Position numbers and translations under genes: made by a program | The notes under the pieces: generated by a model | Database searches by the model: none | Told to the model about the DNA's origin: nothing | The model's input: the letters and a program-made list of their open reading frames with translations, nothing else | Part shown: positions 8,498-47,813 of the stretch, one piece after another | Position numbering within the stretch: the first letter of the stretch is position 1 | How the letters are laid out: each line of letters starts with the position of its first letter | Source of the DNA: Streptomyces kanamyceticus | Lineage (GTDB): Bacteria > Actinomycetota > Actinomycetes > Streptomycetales > Streptomycetaceae | NCBI RefSeq assembly: GCF_008704495.1 | Contig: NZ_CP023699.1 | Span: forward strand, 5,022,001 to 5,086,000 | Direction: 5' to 3' | DNA length: 64,000 nt

Positions 8498-9117
8498 CGT
8501 AAGCCGCCCTCCTGCTGTTGCTGGCTGCTCTCGCCCGCTGGGCCCGAGGCCCTCGTCGTCTGACTCGGTGTCTCTCAGCCATGCCGTGGGAAGGACACCG
8601 GGGAACAGTCTGACGCACCGCACTGACAGTCGGTGCCCGTCGGGGTCAAGTCGTGCCGAGCGGCAGGGAAGCTCCGGAGCGCGAGTTGTGCACAGGCCCC
8701 ACTTCCAAACAATTTCCCCGGACTCTCTAGTTGTCAGTAGTAGTAGGGGCTGTGGAAACCGTGGATAACCGCGAAAGCGCTGGTCAGCACCGGTTTTTTA
8801 TCCACTGAGCCTGTGGGCGACACCCGTGGAAAACCCGGTGTTTCTGTGGACGGCCGAAAGTTCTGCACACCCGATGCACAGGCAGGGGCCACTTCTCCCC
8901 AGCGCCGTCCCCAGCTTTACCCAGCTTCCCCACAGGCCAACCGACCACCTTGGTGTGACGCCTTTCACTCGACTCGGTGAGAGGGCGCGTCGTGTTGCCG
9001 AACAGTGGACAGCCGTGTGGAGAAGCTGGGGAAGGCTGGGGACAACGAGCTCAAGCCTGTGGGTTGCCGGTGGACAACTTCATGCACAGCCTGTGGACGA
9101 GTTTTTCCTCCACAGGC

Positions 9118-9126
9118 TGTGGACAA
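9118..9126 (-). promoter_or_regulatory. Consensus DnaA box in oriC
   Basis: Exact TTGTCCACA on the minus strand. It is flanked within 30 bases by TCCTCCACA (9106), GAATCCACA (9138) and TCGTCCACA (9092, minus strand), making this the densest part of the origin. Confidence 0.9.
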
Positions 9127-9353
9127 TCTTCGTCCACGAATCCACAACCGGCTGACCTGGCCTGATGATCCCTCAGCAGCCTCCCCTGTGGACAGTGTCT
9201 GGACAACTTTCCAGTCCCCAGGGTGTGGACGCGAAAAAGTTCGAACATCTGTGGAGAACCGCCGTCTGACCAGGGGTAATCGAACAGCGGCTGGGGCCTG
9301 TCCGGCTCGCCGTCGCTCCGTGGACAGCGAAGGAACAGCGAAAGACAGCGAAA

Positions 9354-9407: not shown

Positions 9408-11306
9408 TCAGCCGTTCTTGATGCGGTTCGTGAGCTCGGTGACCTGGTTGTAGATGGAGCGCCGCTCGGCCATCAGAGCGCGGATCTTGCGGTCCGCGTG
9501 CATCACCGTCGTGTGATCACGGCCGCCGAACTGCGCACCGATCTTCGGCAGGGAGAGGTCGGTCAGCTCGCGGCACAGATACATGGCGATCTGCCGCGCC
9601 GTCACCAGGACCCGGCTGCGCGAGGATCCGCACAGGTCGTCCACCGTCAGCCCGAAGTAGTCCGCGGTCGCGGCCATGATGGCCGGCGCCGTGATCTCCG
9701 GAGAGGCGTCCTCGCCGCCGGGGATCAGATCCTTGAGGACGATCTCCGTCAGACCGAGGTCGACCGGCTGCCGGTTGAGCGACGCGAACGCCGTGACGCG
9801 GATCAGCGCGCCCTCCAGCTCACGGATGTTCCGCGAGATGCGCGACGCGATGAACTCGAGCACCTCCGGAGGAGCGTTGAGCTGCTCCTGCACCGCCTTC
9901 TTACGAAGGATCGCGATCCGCGTCTCCAGCTCGGGCGGCTGGACGTCGGTGATCAGTCCCCACTCGAAGCGGTTGCGCAGCCGGTCCTCCAGGGTGACCA
10001 GCTGCTTGGGCGGCCGGTCACTGGAGAGCACGATCTGCTTGTTCGCGTTGTGGAGCGTATTGAAGGTGTGGAAGAACTCCTCCTGCGTCGACTCCTTGTC
10101 CGCGAGGAACTGGATGTCGTCGACGAGCAGGATGTCCATCTCGCGGTAGCGCTTGCGGAAGCTGTCGCCCTTGCCGTCGCGGATGGAGTTGATGAACTCG
10201 TTGGTGAACTCCTCCGAGCTCACGTAGCGCACGCGCGTGCCGGGGTAGAGGCTGCGGGCGTAGTGCCCGATCGCGTGCAGCAGATGCGTTTTGCCAAGTC
10301 CCGACTCTCCGTAGATGAAGAGGGGGTTGTACGCCTTCGCGGGTGCCTCGGCGACCGCCACCGCGGCCGCGTGCGCGAAGCGGTTGGACGCTCCGATGAC
10401 GAAGGTGTCGAAGAGGTACTTGGGGTTGAGGCGCGCGGTGGGCTCACCGGGTCCTGTCGCGGGCGCCGGCTGCGCGGCCAGCGGGCCGGGGGCGCCGCTC
10501 GACGACGTGGGACCGACGGGGCCGCCCCGGTGCACGCCGCCGTGGCCGCTGCCCCGGTGATCGCCGGAATCCGGCATGTCGTGGCGCTCGCGCCGGTCCT
10601 GCGGATCGTGGCGCTGCTGGCCGTACGGCGAACGATCCTGCGGCGGCTGCGAGCGGTAGTCGTGCTGCGGCTGCTGGACCGGGTTCGCGTACGGGTCGCG
10701 GTCGGGGAAGCCGAGCCGCGGCTGCTGCCAGCCGTAGTCGTCCTGCGGCTGCTGGTGCTGGGGCTGGTGCTGCGGCCAGGCGCCGGGAGTGGGGCGCTGG
10801 TAGTCCGGATACGCGGGGCGGGCAGTCGGCAGCTGGTCGGGACGCTGCCCCGCCCCGTGCTCGTCCTGGTGGCGGCGGCCGTAACCGTCGTACGAGTCGC
10901 GGCCCTGGCCTTGCCCCTGCCCCTGCCCCGAGGGCGGTTCCGGGTCGTCGTAGTGCTGGTGCTGCTGGTGCTGCTGTTGCTGCATGGGCTGCTGCTGGAG
11001 CGGCGGCGCGGGCGGGCCCAGCGGTTCGCCGACGGAGTCGTCGACCGTGATGGCGATGCGGATCGGGCGGCCGCACTCACGGCTCAGCGTCTCGCTGACC
11101 ACGGGTGCGAGACGGCCTTCCAGTACGCCCTTGGCGAATTCGTTCGGCACGGCGAGCAGCGCGGTGTCGGCGACGAGTGCCAGTGGCTGGCAGCTCCTGA
11201 GCCACCGTTCGTCCTTCGCCTCGACGCCCTGCCCGCGGCCCTCACCCAGCAGATGTTCCAGCACTCGTGGCCACACTGCGGCAAGATCGGCAGGTACGTC
11301 AGCCAC
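9408..11306 (-). CDS. dnaA: Chromosomal replication initiator DnaA
   Basis: AAA+ initiator that binds DnaA boxes and opens oriC, 632 residues. Domain I is residues 1-90. Domain II (about 95-290) is unusually long and rich in Gln, Pro, His, Tyr and Gly. The AAA+ domain III has Walker A GESGLGKT at 333-340 and Walker [12 protein letters not shown]. Domain IV carries the DNA-binding signature [15 protein letters not shown]. The GTG at 11306 ([12 protein letters not shown]) matches Streptomyces DnaA proteins, while the longer open frame does not. Long domain II is typical of Streptomyces. The upstream leader contains DnaA boxes, suggesting autoregulation. Confidence 0.97.
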
Positions 11307-11673
11307 AGGGCACGCTCTCTCACGGGGTCCCACGAAGGTGTGGTTCTTGGGACGGAAATCGGGATGGGGAGGGGGAAGGGAACGAATCGGAGTTCAGCCA
11401 CGGTAGTCAGGGCGACGGGTGCGGTTCAAGTTGTTGTCCACAGGCTGTGCACAGTGTCTCCCTCCAGCGGTCGGTTTGACCGGATGGCGTAGCCCCGCGT
11501 ACCGTGACCAGGTCGAGTTGTCGATGGCTGCTGCCGCCTGCCTCCGATGGGCAAAGATCACGATCTGTGATTGTGAAGCGGTGCACTCGGTGCGTATACG
11601 CGAGCTTCTCGTGGGCGCACGGTGACAGCCAGGCGATGTCCCGCCACCACACGATCATTTCTGGAGCCCCCGA
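11307..11673. promoter_or_regulatory. Divergent dnaA / rpmH promoter region
   Basis: A 367-base gene-free stretch between dnaA (-) and rpmH (+). It holds an exact DnaA box TTGTCCACA at 11434-11442 and CTGTGCACA at 11445-11453, both on the plus strand. DnaA boxes in the dnaA leader are known in Streptomyces to mediate autorepression. AT-richer DNA at 11555-11580 (ATCACGATCTGTGATTGTGA) may carry the rpmH promoter. I could not assign -10/-35 elements with confidence. Confidence 0.75.
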
Positions 11674-44539: not shown

Positions 44540-45877
44540 TCAGCGGGTGGCGCCCGTGACGATCCAGCGGCCGGAGCGGGAGCGCAGCCACAGGGTGAGC
44601 ATCCGCACCGCCATCATCAGCGTCATCGCTCCCCACAGTGCGGTCAGGCCGCCGCCGAAGGTCGGCACCAGGAGTGCCACGGGCGTGAAGACCGCGAGCG
44701 TGGCGATCATGGCCCAGGCCAGATACGGGCCGTCCCCGGCGCCCATCAGGACGCCGTCGAGCACGAAGACGATGCCGCAGATCGGCTGGGCGAGGGCGAT
44801 CACGATGAGAGCGGGCAGTGCCGCGTCCTCGACGGCCGCGTCACCGGTGAAGAGCGGGATGAACAAGGGGCGCGCGAGCACGACCAGCAGGCCGAGGACG
44901 ACGCCGGATGCGATGCCCCACTGCACCATCCGCCGACAGACGGCGCGCGCGCCGTCCGCGTCGTCGGCGCCCAGGTAGCGTCCGATGATGGCCTGCCCGG
45001 CGATGGCGATCGCGTCGAGCGCGAAGGCCAGCAAACTCCACAGGGACAGAACGATCTGGTGGGCGGCCACGTCGGCGTCACCGAGACGGGCGGCCACGGC
45101 GGTCGCGATCATCAAGATGGCCCGCAGCGAGAGCGTGCGGACCAGCAGCGGTACCCCGGCCTGGGCGCAGGCCCGGATCCCGGCGGCGTCGGGACGCAGC
45201 GAGGCGCCGTGCCGCCTGGCACCGCGTACGACGACGACGAGGTAGACGGCGGCCATGCCGAACTGGGCGATGACCGTGCCCCAGGCGGATCCGGCGATGC
45301 CCAGGTCCGCGCCGTAGACCAGGCCGACATTGAGGACACCGTTGGTGACGAAGCCGCCGATGGCGACGTACAGCGGGGTCTTGGTGTCCTGCAGTCCGCG
45401 CAGTACGCCGGTGGCGGCGAGTACGACGAGCATGGCGGGGATGCCGAGTGCGGAGATGCGCAGGTACGTGATCGCGTAAGGAGCCGCGGTGTCCGAGGCG
45501 CCGAAGAGGTCGACGAGGGCGGGTGCCGTGGGCAGGACGACGGCGATGACCGCGGCGCCGAGCAGCAGGGCGAGCCAGATGCCGTCCATGCCCTGGCGGA
45601 TGGCGGCCTGGAGATCGCCGGCGCCCACCCGGCGGGCGACAGCGGCGGTGGTGGCGTACGCGAGGAAGACGAACACGCTCACCGCGGTGGTGAGGAGTGC
45701 CGCGGCGATGCCGAGACCGGCCAGTTGCGCGGTGCCGAGGTGGCCGACGATGGCGCTGTCGGCCATCACGAAGAGCGGCTCGGCGACCAGCGCGCCGAAG
45801 GCGGGGACGGCGAGGGCGATGATCTCTCGGTCGTGTCTTCGCCGGACGGCCTTGGGCGCTGCGGGAGCCTGTGTCAT
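44540..45877 (-). CDS. MATE-family efflux transporter
   Basis: 445 residues with about 12 hydrophobic segments and the MATE pattern of duplicated halves. The first half begins EIIALAVPAFGALVAEPLFVMADSAIVGHLG. Likely Na+- or H+-coupled export of cationic compounds; the substrate is unknown. It converges on rplI. ATG 45877 is chosen over in-frame TTG/GTG codons just upstream; the transcript may be nearly leaderless. Confidence 0.88.
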   Translation of the reverse strand: MTQAPAAPKAVRRRHDREIIALAVPAFGALVAEPLFVMADSAIVGHLGTAQLAGLGIAAALLTTAVSVFVFLAYATTAAVARRVGAGDLQAAIRQGMDGIWLALLLGAAVIAVVLPTAPALVDLFGASDTAAPYAITYLRISALGIPAMLVVLAATGVLRGLQDTKTPLYVAIGGFVTNGVLNVGLVYGADLGIAGSAWGTVIAQFGMAAVYLVVVVRGARRHGASLRPDAAGIRACAQAGVPLLVRTLSLRAILMIATAVAARLGDADVAAHQIVLSLWSLLAFALDAIAIAGQAIIGRYLGADDADGARAVCRRMVQWGIASGVVLGLLVVLARPLFIPLFTGDAAVEDAALPALIVIALAQPICGIVFVLDGVLMGAGDGPYLAWAMIATLAVFTPVALLVPTFGGGLTALWGAMTLMMAVRMLTLWLRSRSGRWIVTGATR

Positions 45878-46334
45878 GGGCACCAATCTAATCTTCCACA
45901 GGTAAGAGATGCAATGTTCTTTAGACCCTTACGTGGGTGCTCGTCGGGCGCTCCTTCGCGCGCCGTTTGTCGTGATCTTGGTCAGAGTGGAGAAGTTTTT
46001 CTTCTGCACAGCCGGTGGATGGGAAAGTCGCAGGTCAGAGAGGCTTTTCTGAGTTGGCTGAGGGCTTGTTCACAGGGCTGTCCACCGGGCCGTGCACAGG
46101 TTTGGCGGGGTTCTCCACAGCATCGGGCCCGTCATCCACACCGCCTGTGGATAACCAGATTGGCTGACGGTGCCCACGGGCCTACCGTGGTCCGGCGCCC
46201 GCCTCGTCTTTCGACCTCGGAAACCCCGTAAAACCGACGCGTCAGAACCGGAGTTGGGCCCCCTTATTTGTCAGTGTCGTGCCGTAGGAAGAGGCATGGC
46301 GAGGTCCGCTCGGCGGACGGGAGGAGGTGGCCCG
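45878..46334. promoter_or_regulatory. Long dnaB upstream region rich in DnaA boxes
   Basis: 457 bases between divergent MATE (-) and dnaB (+). No gene seen. DnaA-box-like 9-mers: TCTTCCACA 45892, AGTGGAGAA 45986, TTCTGCACA 46002, TTGTTCACA 46066, CTGTCCACC 46078, CCGTGCACA 46090, TTCTCCACA 46111, TCATCCACA 46132, and TGTGGATAA 46146 (exact TTATCCACA on the minus strand). The cluster of six within 46066-46154 is the densest outside oriC in this window. Confidence 0.75.
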
Positions 46335-47813
46335 GTGAGTATCTCCGAGCCTTTGGACGACCCCTGGGCCGACAGCGGTCCCAGTGACCGTCTGCCCGTC
46401 TCCCGACCGCGCCGCGACGGAGGCCGGGGCGGCCGCGACGAGCAGCACGAGCGAGGCCGCGAAGGCGGCTGGGACGGCGGCGGCTCGTCCTTCGAGCGCG
46501 TTCCCCCGCAGGATCTCGATGCCGAGCAGTCGGTGCTCGGCGGCATGCTGCTCTCCAAGGACGCGATCGCCGATGTCGTCGAGGTCCTCAAGGGCCACGA
46601 CTTCTACCGGCCCGCGCACGAGACCGTCTACTCGGCGATCCTCGACCTGTACGCGAAGGGCGAGCCGGCCGACCCGATCACCGTCGCGGCCGAACTCACC
46701 AAGCGCGGCGAGATCACCAAGGTCGGCGGCGCATCGTATCTGCACACCCTGGTCCAGACGGTCCCGACCGCGGCGAACGCCGAGTACTACGCGGAGATCG
46801 TCCACGAGCGCGCGGTCCTGCGCCGCCTCGTCGAGGCAGGCACGCGCATCACCCAGATGGGATACGCGGCCGACGGCGACGTCGACGAGATCGTCAACAG
46901 CGCCCAGGCCGAGATCTACGCGGTCACCGAGCAGCGCACCACCGAGGACTATCTGCCGCTCGGCGACATCATGGAGGGCGCGCTCGACGAGATCGAGGCG
47001 ATCGGCTCGCGCTCCGGTGAGATGACCGGTGTGCCGACCGGCTTCACCGACCTCGACCAGCTCACCAACGGCCTGCACCCGGGCCAGATGATCATCATCG
47101 CCGCCCGTCCCGCGATGGGTAAGTCGACGCTGGCCCTCGACTTCGCGCGAGCCTGTTCGATCAAGCACAACATGCCGAGCGTGATCTTCTCGCTCGAAAT
47201 GGGGCGCAACGAGATCGCGATGCGTCTGCTGTCCGCCGAGGCCCGCGTGGCGCTGCACCACATGCGTTCCGGCACGATGACGGACGAGGACTGGACCCGG
47301 CTCGCCCGCCGGATGCCGGACGTCTCGGCCGCGCCGCTCTACATCGACGACTCCCCGAACCTGTCGATGATGGAGATCCGCGCCAAGTGCCGCCGCCTCA
47401 AGCAGCGCAACGACCTCAAGCTCGTCGTCATCGACTACCTGCAGCTGATGCAGTCCGGCGGTTCCAAGCGGTCCGAGAGCCGCCAGCAGGAAGTCTCGGA
47501 CATGTCGCGAAACCTGAAGCTCCTCGCCAAGGAGCTCGAGCTGCCGGTGATCGCGCTCTCGCAGCTGAACCGTGGCCCCGAGCAGCGTACGGACAAGAAG
47601 CCGATGGTGTCCGACCTGCGTGAATCCGGCTCGATCGAGCAGGACGCGGACATGGTGATCCTGCTGCACCGCGAGGACGCGTACGAGAAGGAGTCACCGC
47701 GCGCGGGCGAGGCCGACATCATCGTCGGCAAGCACCGTAACGGCCCGACGGCGACGATCACGGTCGCCTTCCAGGGCCACTACTCGCGCTTCGTGGACAT
47801 GGCGCAGACCTGA
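46335..47813 (+). CDS. dnaB: Replicative DNA helicase DnaB
   Basis: Hexameric 5'-3' helicase of the replisome, 492 residues. The N-terminal domain follows a 50-residue Arg/Gly-rich lead. The RecA-like domain has Walker A ARPAMGKSTLAL and Walker B LVVIDYLQLMQ; SLEMGRNEIAMRLL and HRNGPTATITVAFQG are later motifs. No intein interrupts it, unlike some mycobacterial dnaB genes. The GTG at 46335 (VSISEPLDDPWADS) has GGAGG upstream. It ends 5 bases before the convergent TetR stop with no room for a terminator. Confidence 0.96.
   Translation: MSISEPLDDPWADSGPSDRLPVSRPRRDGGRGGRDEQHERGREGGWDGGGSSFERVPPQDLDAEQSVLGGMLLSKDAIADVVEVLKGHDFYRPAHETVYSAILDLYAKGEPADPITVAAELTKRGEITKVGGASYLHTLVQTVPTAANAEYYAEIVHERAVLRRLVEAGTRITQMGYAADGDVDEIVNSAQAEIYAVTEQRTTEDYLPLGDIMEGALDEIEAIGSRSGEMTGVPTGFTDLDQLTNGLHPGQMIIIAARPAMGKSTLALDFARACSIKHNMPSVIFSLEMGRNEIAMRLLSAEARVALHHMRSGTMTDEDWTRLARRMPDVSAAPLYIDDSPNLSMMEIRAKCRRLKQRNDLKLVVIDYLQLMQSGGSKRSESRQQEVSDMSRNLKLLAKELELPVIALSQLNRGPEQRTDKKPMVSDLRESGSIEQDADMVILLHREDAYEKESPRAGEADIIVGKHRNGPTATITVAFQGHYSRFVDMAQT

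Follow-up and report, generated by a model that had tools for sequence, protein, structure and literature searches.

The dnaB locus

The window analysed here is a stretch of 64,000 nucleotides of the Streptomyces kanamyceticus genome (G000:C1:5022001-5086000, within a chromosome of 10.13 Mb) that carries dnaN, oriC and dnaA. The oriC region, which served for comparison, lies between dnaA and dnaN at approx. 8660..9330 (limits set by eye, strand not given), and is flanked by dnaA on the minus strand (9408-11333). Approximately 37 kb from oriC starts dnaB, the gene for the replicative DNA helicase (46335..47813, plus strand), which begins with a GTG codon and is assigned to NCBIfam TIGR00665; its product is 83-97% identical to the DnaB proteins of the Streptomyces-labelled loci L009-L042, L045 and L046. 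Divergent from dnaB is a gene for a MATE-family efflux transporter (44540..45886, minus strand, NCBIfam TIGR00797), whose likely ATG start at 45877 leaves a gap of about 457 bp between the two genes. A 551-bp stretch compared with a plasmid collection gave no match, plasmid records being an unlikely place for a chromosomal site.

A cluster of predicted DnaA boxes upstream of dnaB

The high-affinity DnaA box of S. coelicolor is TTGTCCACA, and in actinomycetes the third position is G or C, as described in PMC4285127; mismatches were counted here with position 3 left free. The initial annotation had reported six DnaA-like 9-mers between 46066 and 46154, and all of them are found in place: two perfect, two with one mismatch and two weak. 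On the plus strand, the box TTGTTCACA (46066..46074, one mismatch) is followed after 3 bp by the weak box CTGTCCACC (46078..46086, two mismatches), and this one, after another 3 bp, by the weak box CCGTGCACA (46090..46098, three mismatches), which falls below the cut-off of the box scan and was read directly from the sequence. Further downstream on the same strand are the strong box TTCTCCACA (46111..46119, no mismatch) and the box TCATCCACA (46132..46140, one mismatch), whose end is 19 bp from a -35-like element. The last member, the strong inverted box TTATCCACA (46146..46154, minus strand), is located 5 bp from that element and has no mismatch when position 3 is left free; the initial annotation had listed one exact box on this strand. 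Several candidate DnaA boxes lie beside a candidate dnaB promoter, as is expected of a promoter regulated by DnaA, such as those of dnaA, nrdAB and Caulobacter dnaB.

Weaker 9-mers had also been noted upstream as far as 45892, and these are kept to different degrees in the alignment of 38 sequences described below. The outlying box TCTTCCACA (45892..45900, plus strand), which belongs to the 5' region of the MATE gene, appears as TC[TGA]TCCACA in 35 of the 38, the weak 9-mer TTCTGCACA (46002..46010, plus strand) in 16, and an exact 9-mer at 45986 in one. A palindromic operator belonging to the MATE gene was also considered for the region 45892-45907 and was rejected, given that the variable column there is position 3 of a DnaA box and that TCCACA is kept.

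According to a pattern search over the full 10.13 Mb of the genome, the exact pattern TTNTCCACA has 92 occurrences. The presence of two perfect and two one-mismatch boxes within 89 bp has a P of about 6e-11, with about 6e-4 such groups expected genome-wide; this is a rough Poisson estimate that ignores clumping and uses the genome rate for TTNTCCACA together with the one-mismatch rate of a 400-kb sample. Genome-wide coverage refers to perfect boxes only, and the ranking by density refers to 864 kb of scanned DNA (about 850 kb distinct, since 14 kb of the window are also contained in two of the fetched stretches), which included 16 stretches adjoining the window and four with pairs of perfect boxes, all picked on purpose. 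The best 120-bp segments in these 864 kb scored 10 in oriC, 8 upstream of dnaB, 8 in a cluster at -47 kb, and 7 in clusters at +92 kb and +80 kb, and the score never exceeded 3 in the 400-kb background sample, made up of 20 stretches spread over the chromosome. The dnaB cluster thus ties for second place with the -47 kb cluster, and oriC alone is denser in the approx. 850 kb scanned. To call this density similar to that of oriC was fair but slightly generous, since there are four boxes with at most one mismatch per 120 bp versus six in oriC. A dense cluster of boxes outside oriC, 37 kb away from it, is also what the density and proximity of a titration cluster would look like.

Conservation within Streptomyces

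Of 199 Streptomyces genomes, that of the window included, 191 match the 161-bp stretch 46040-46200 with an E value no higher than 0.001; these matches were counted anywhere in the genome, whatever their position relative to dnaB. A finer comparison was made with an alignment of 38 sequences, i.e., the window and 37 relatives, including one labelled Kitasatospora and one labelled Saccharothrix, which group with the others. The inverted box 46146 (TTATCCACA) is identical in all 38 sequences. Box 46111 reads TTCTCCACA in 32 of them, TTACCCACA in three, TTGTCCACA in two and TTATCCACA in one, and box 46066 reads TTGTTCACA in 17, TTGTCCACA in 15, TTATCCACA in four, and CTGTCCACA and TTCTCCACA in one each. 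At box 46132 the forms are TCGTCCACA (18 sequences), TCATCCACA (11), TCACCCACA (five) and four others; as for the two weak boxes, CTGTCCACC is present at 46078 in 17/38 and [CT]CGTGCACA at 46090 in 30/38. Mean majority identity is 0.937 for the box columns, 0.743 for the columns between boxes and 0.718 for the rest of the gap, and none of 10000 random placements reached the conservation of the box columns. In loci L041 and L042 only 102 bp are matched in this region, and these correspond to the cluster itself. Locus L040, which is absent from the alignment, has no BLAST match over the cluster stretch, yet it has boxes upstream of dnaB.

A candidate promoter in register with the boxes

Downstream of the inverted box lies a candidate dnaB promoter, P1 (46160..46188, plus strand), formed by TTGGCT (46160-46165), a spacer of 17 bp and TACCGT (46183-46188). 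The initial annotation had suggested a comparison of box spacing upstream of dnaB across Streptomyces, and this revealed a fixed arrangement: in 38/38 aligned sequences box 46146 is followed by exactly 5 bp and then by TTGNNN-N17/18-TANNNT. The spacer has 17 bp in 33 sequences and 18 bp in five, and the hexamers are TTGGCT in 29 and TACCGT in 28 of the 38. This conservation is what suggests P1 as a promoter; a stricter scan for E. coli-type promoters found none upstream of dnaB.

In other families, 43 of 81 loci have a site of the TTGNNN/TANNNT type within 800 bp of dnaB, and in 35 of those 43 a box is in register with it, at one of the recurrent distances, which corresponds to 35 of 79 loci after removal of duplicates. 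In these loci the plus-strand boxes end 7-8, 19-20, 30-31, 41, 51, 53 or 62-65 bp before the promoter-like site. Random placement of the site gave a mean of 2.05 loci in register, with a maximum of 9 in 2000 trials, a control that understates chance given that the distance classes were set after viewing the same loci and that the loci are related. The plus-strand box located 19 bp before the -35-like element in the window (46132) has its equivalent in the other families, at 19-20 bp. The boxes are therefore conserved together with dnaB and hold a fixed spacing to the promoter, as a promoter regulated by DnaA should, this spacing being seen in 35/79 of the other-family loci.

A PafBC-like element

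Between P1 and dnaB there is an element that resembles the sites of PafBC (RecA-NDp-like), TGTCAG-N10-TAGGAA (46269..46290, plus strand), which matches TGTC[GA]G-N10-TA and represents a candidate second promoter, P2. The pattern TGTCRG-N10-TA is found upstream of dnaB in 29/34 sequences of the Streptomyces set, in four of the five loci L040-L044, in 26/82 other loci of the class (26/79 when non-redundant) and in 1/40 loci from other classes; elsewhere in the same loci it occurs at most 0.011 times per 500 bp. The published PafBC motif is TGTC[GA]G-N10-TANNNT (PMC8151990). Its final T is absent from the window and from all 29 sequences of the Streptomyces set that bear the rest, and is present in 8/82 of the other class loci. 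Mitomycin C leads to overexpression of M. tuberculosis dnaB also when RecA and PafBC are missing, and part of this response depends on PafBC (PMC8151990).

The cluster in other families of the class

The non-redundant sample of other families comprises 79 loci, i.e., L047-L088 without L073, taken from the best 80 loci of the DnaB search, plus loci from 40 genomes (30 families) hand-picked for spread and N-terminal match among 135 with a match, less two duplicates. Of these duplicates, L183 lies on the same contig as L072 and L191 resembles L165; both were left out of the 79-locus and neighbour counts only; L073 was left out of these and also of the spacing and register counts, and was kept in the 82-locus PafBC count. 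L073 belongs to a contig labelled Streptomyces yangpuensis, its DnaB is 71% identical to the query and falls among Microbacterium matches, and it is without the cluster; this contig is probably a contamination. The class is called Actinomycetia after the named loci. For other classes of the phylum, 40 of 117 genomes were hand-picked by the same features.

Within 800 bp upstream of dnaB, at least three boxes are present in 65/79 other-family loci and at least one perfect box in 60/79. These 62.7 kb contain 117 perfect and 270 one-mismatch boxes, as compared with seven perfect and 150 one-mismatch boxes in the remaining 526 kb of the same 79 loci, which amounts to an enrichment of approx. 140-fold and 15-fold, respectively. 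Fewer than three boxes were found in 14/79 loci, and none in two of them, L061 and L164, the latter with only 255 bp of upstream sequence. In other classes of the phylum, at least three boxes were detected in 9/40 and a perfect box in 6/40 loci (900 bp upstream of dnaB). The initial annotation had regarded the absence of these boxes from the regions upstream of orthologous dnaB genes as evidence against its proposal; the comparison was run and, as the counts for the class, for the Streptomyces genomes (191/199) and for box 46146 (38/38) reveal, the boxes are retained.

The cluster stays with dnaB whatever gene adjoins it upstream: at least three boxes are present in 15/19 loci with a MATE gene upstream, in 20/27 with rplI directly upstream and in 30/33 with neither. 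The commonest start-to-start spacings between boxes are 12 and 11 bp in the other families; for the Streptomyces set they are 45 and 21 bp. Those of 11 and 12 bp are like the paired DnaA boxes of E. coli, described as 2-3 bp apart (PMC11317965).

Other clusters of DnaA boxes in the chromosome

The -47 kb cluster (L094:13857-14055; G000:C1:4983857-4984055) is located between crgA and a rhomboid gene, two convergent genes whose 3' ends flank it. This stretch has matches in 101/101 genomes of the genus, its own included, several of them over part of its length. In the class, boxes were found in the 500 bp downstream of crgA in 20/20 loci, with a perfect box in 18 and at least three boxes in 11. 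The +92 kb cluster (L099:3217-3528; G000:C1:5123217-5123528) lies between pheA and serS and has matches in 95/101 genus genomes, its own included, many of them only partial; in the other families, the 700 bp preceding serS were free of boxes in 19/19 loci. These serS loci serve as a control, indicating that not every gene tested in this way has boxes. The crgA and serS samples, of 20 and 19 loci, came from 25 genomes each.

The mycobacterial gene Rv0011c is taken here to be crgA, and solved chains named 'Cell division protein CrgA' match the CrgA protein encoded in the genome of the window; because of this, the crgA-side cluster is likely the counterpart of the mycobacterial DnaA site at Rv0010c-Rv0011c. 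This site was reported by Hicks et al. as one with no obvious correspondence in other species (PMC7738170).

Smaller groups of boxes were also observed. One is located between the genes for an RNA 2'-phosphotransferase and a MerR-like regulator (L098:11649-11702; G000:C1:5111649-5111702). Another consists of two inverted perfect boxes approx. 40-80 bp before a long ORF (L105:9983-10024; G000:C1:2805983-2806024), which, judged from its first residues, looks like a RecQ-type or DEAD-box helicase. The third contains two perfect boxes between divergent ORFs, 0.9 Mb from oriC (L106:9826-9919; G000:C1:4118826-4118919).

Relation to known systems

In 2006, Smulczyk-Krawczyszyn and colleagues are said to have read the S. 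coelicolor clusters H69, H24 and D78 as involved in the control of initiation, chiefly D78. From the cosmid names, H24 is presumably the dnaB cluster, H69 the crgA one and D78 the one between pheA and serS; a search of open-licence papers found nothing tying H24 to the dnaB cluster through cosmid names. The published clusters of S. coelicolor (Smulczyk-Krawczyszyn et al. 2006, J Bacteriol 188:6184, as cited elsewhere) agree with the earlier statement that such clusters are known away from oriC in this species; like the dnaB cluster, they are outside but near oriC, in the same genus. Likewise, datA of E. coli and the oriC-proximal clusters of B. subtilis are formed by DnaA boxes away from oriC; however, these are described as repressing untimely initiation (datA through hydrolysis of DnaA-ATP), and their descriptions include no helicase promoter.

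The closest known case is that of mycobacteria, where IDAP-seq with DnaA of M. tuberculosis and ChIP-seq in M. smegmatis both identified a site upstream of dnaB (PMC7738170). This site (Rv0057 region; Hicks et al. 2020, PMC7738170) is also directly upstream of dnaB, in the same class; it belongs to the five DnaA sites with high enrichment in the genome and, in one DnaA variant, has a link to the expression of dnaB. The I282T variant of DnaA binds more weakly upstream of dnaB and uniquely under-expresses this gene (PMC7738170). The mycobacterial report differs in that it concerns mycobacteria and not Streptomyces; we met no promoter register in it, and for dnaB it cites Caulobacter; the words Streptomyces and crgA are absent from its main text (PMC7738170). 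Following Hottes et al. 2005, PMC8203912 places dnaB of Caulobacter crescentus in the DnaA regulon, with predicted upstream DnaA boxes and DnaA-dependent expression, as proposed here, in a distant phylum. The novelty implied by the initial annotation was therefore too high, since DnaA upstream of dnaB had been published for mycobacteria and DnaA-dependent expression of dnaB for Caulobacter. In the open-licence literature we did not meet a class-wide DnaA operator of dnaB, promoter-anchored spacing of its boxes, the PafBC-like neighbour in Streptomyces, or a second class-wide cluster downstream of crgA; nor did we find an open-licence paper joining DnaA, crgA, dnaB and DnaA binding.

Possible control of dnaB by DnaA

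It is probable that the cluster acts as a DnaA operator of the dnaB promoter, on which a filament ending 5 bp before the -35 element of P1 would raise transcription. Cooperative assembly of DnaA would begin at box 46146, the inverted one that does not vary, and at the strong box 46111, and would extend over the weaker boxes that lie between these two or farther upstream; of these, the weak ones probably require DnaA-ATP. The short filament would end next to the -35 element of P1 and increase dnaB transcription, and helicase supply would thereby follow initiator activity. Binding of S. coelicolor DnaA to weak boxes is reported to be better with ATP (PMC3411110). Binding of DnaA to the dnaB cluster in Streptomyces is itself predicted from the boxes. 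The operator reading, and with it the direct control of dnaB by DnaA put forward in the initial annotation, is favoured by the fixed register, by the class-wide link to dnaB and by the binding and expression data from mycobacteria; against it stand the register being limited to 35/79 loci, the 14/79 loci with fewer than three boxes and the empty result of the stricter promoter scan.

The sign of the control was weighed apart from its existence, and activation is somewhat preferred to repression. The region upstream of the -35 element is the usual position of an activator, and all six boxes are upstream of it, none overlapping the -35 or -10 elements or lying downstream. That DnaA represses dnaB for homeostasis, so that high DnaA activity shuts the promoter, would fit with the proximal box being just 5 bp from the -35 element, and also with DnaA binding its own promoter and autoregulating dnaA in several bacteria, including S. 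lividans (PMC8203912); nevertheless, the location of the boxes argues against it, and weaker binding in the mycobacterial variant went with reduced, not increased, expression of dnaB, so that we consider repression unlikely. The preference for activation is in turn weakened by the fact that DnaA can repress and that the mycobacterial expression result comes from one variant.

A stronger competitor, to which we give a substantial but less than even chance, is that the cluster is mainly a site of DnaA titration or inactivation near oriC, comparable to D78, datA or the B. subtilis clusters, which would lower free DnaA-ATP and restrain initiation, its position at dnaB being incidental or secondary. 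Titration had also been offered in the initial annotation. The clusters at -47, +37, +80 and +92 kb around oriC exceed in density all other DNA scanned apart from oriC itself, and in S. coelicolor and B. subtilis clusters near oriC are reported to repress initiation at the wrong time. The distance between dnaB and dnaA is 21-86 kb in the 17 genomes measured out of 20, a set that omits G240, G293 and G223, for which lengths were available only as rounded values, and in which wrap-around distances assume circular contigs; because dnaB is near dnaA wherever measured, titration and control of dnaB are not separable by distance to oriC. On the other hand, titration needs no promoter register, yet the register is kept, and the +92 kb site was not found before serS in the 19 loci of other families, whereas the dnaB site is found across the class. 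Control of dnaB is favoured over titration alone because the boxes keep this fixed register; still, titration can hold together with the operator reading, and the odds given to both overlap.

Much less credit is given to two other possibilities. The conserved box 45892, approx. 15 bp before the likely ATG of the MATE gene, could suggest that the cluster serves this divergent gene and not dnaB, but no MATE gene was found within 2.6 kb upstream of dnaB in 60/79 other-family loci and 50 of these 60 still have at least three boxes, which makes such a role very improbable. The idea of a second or relic replication origin starts from the oriC-like density of boxes; nevertheless, the cluster is outside the dnaA-dnaN region, oriC itself is present 37 kb away, and nothing in the strand-skew profile points to an origin at the cluster, a profile that is uninformative at oriC too. 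We regard an origin as scarcely credible. As regards a DNA-unwinding element beside the boxes, the lowest GC content in 50 bp is 0.38 near 45882, the minimum in oriC being 0.48.

A broader proposal for the class Actinomycetia, possible but held here with more doubt than confidence, is that of an ancestral circuit coupling initiator, helicase supply and damage. In it, dnaB would have a phase-locked DnaA operator whose boxes precede the -35 element by approx. 7, 19, 30, 41, 51 and 63 bp, and a DnaA filament in set register would switch the helicase promoter according to initiator activity. A PafBC-like damage element would act separately, and the crgA-side site would be the matching site of titration or recycling.

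At the origin, DnaA and DnaB work one after the other. If the operator reading is true, a conserved operator would allow the initiator to set the supply of the helicase, a simple link from initiation to fork capacity, in a class to which major antibiotic producers belong. In addition, the crgA-side site may be the Streptomyces counterpart of a mycobacterial site that had been described without obvious correspondence (PMC7738170).
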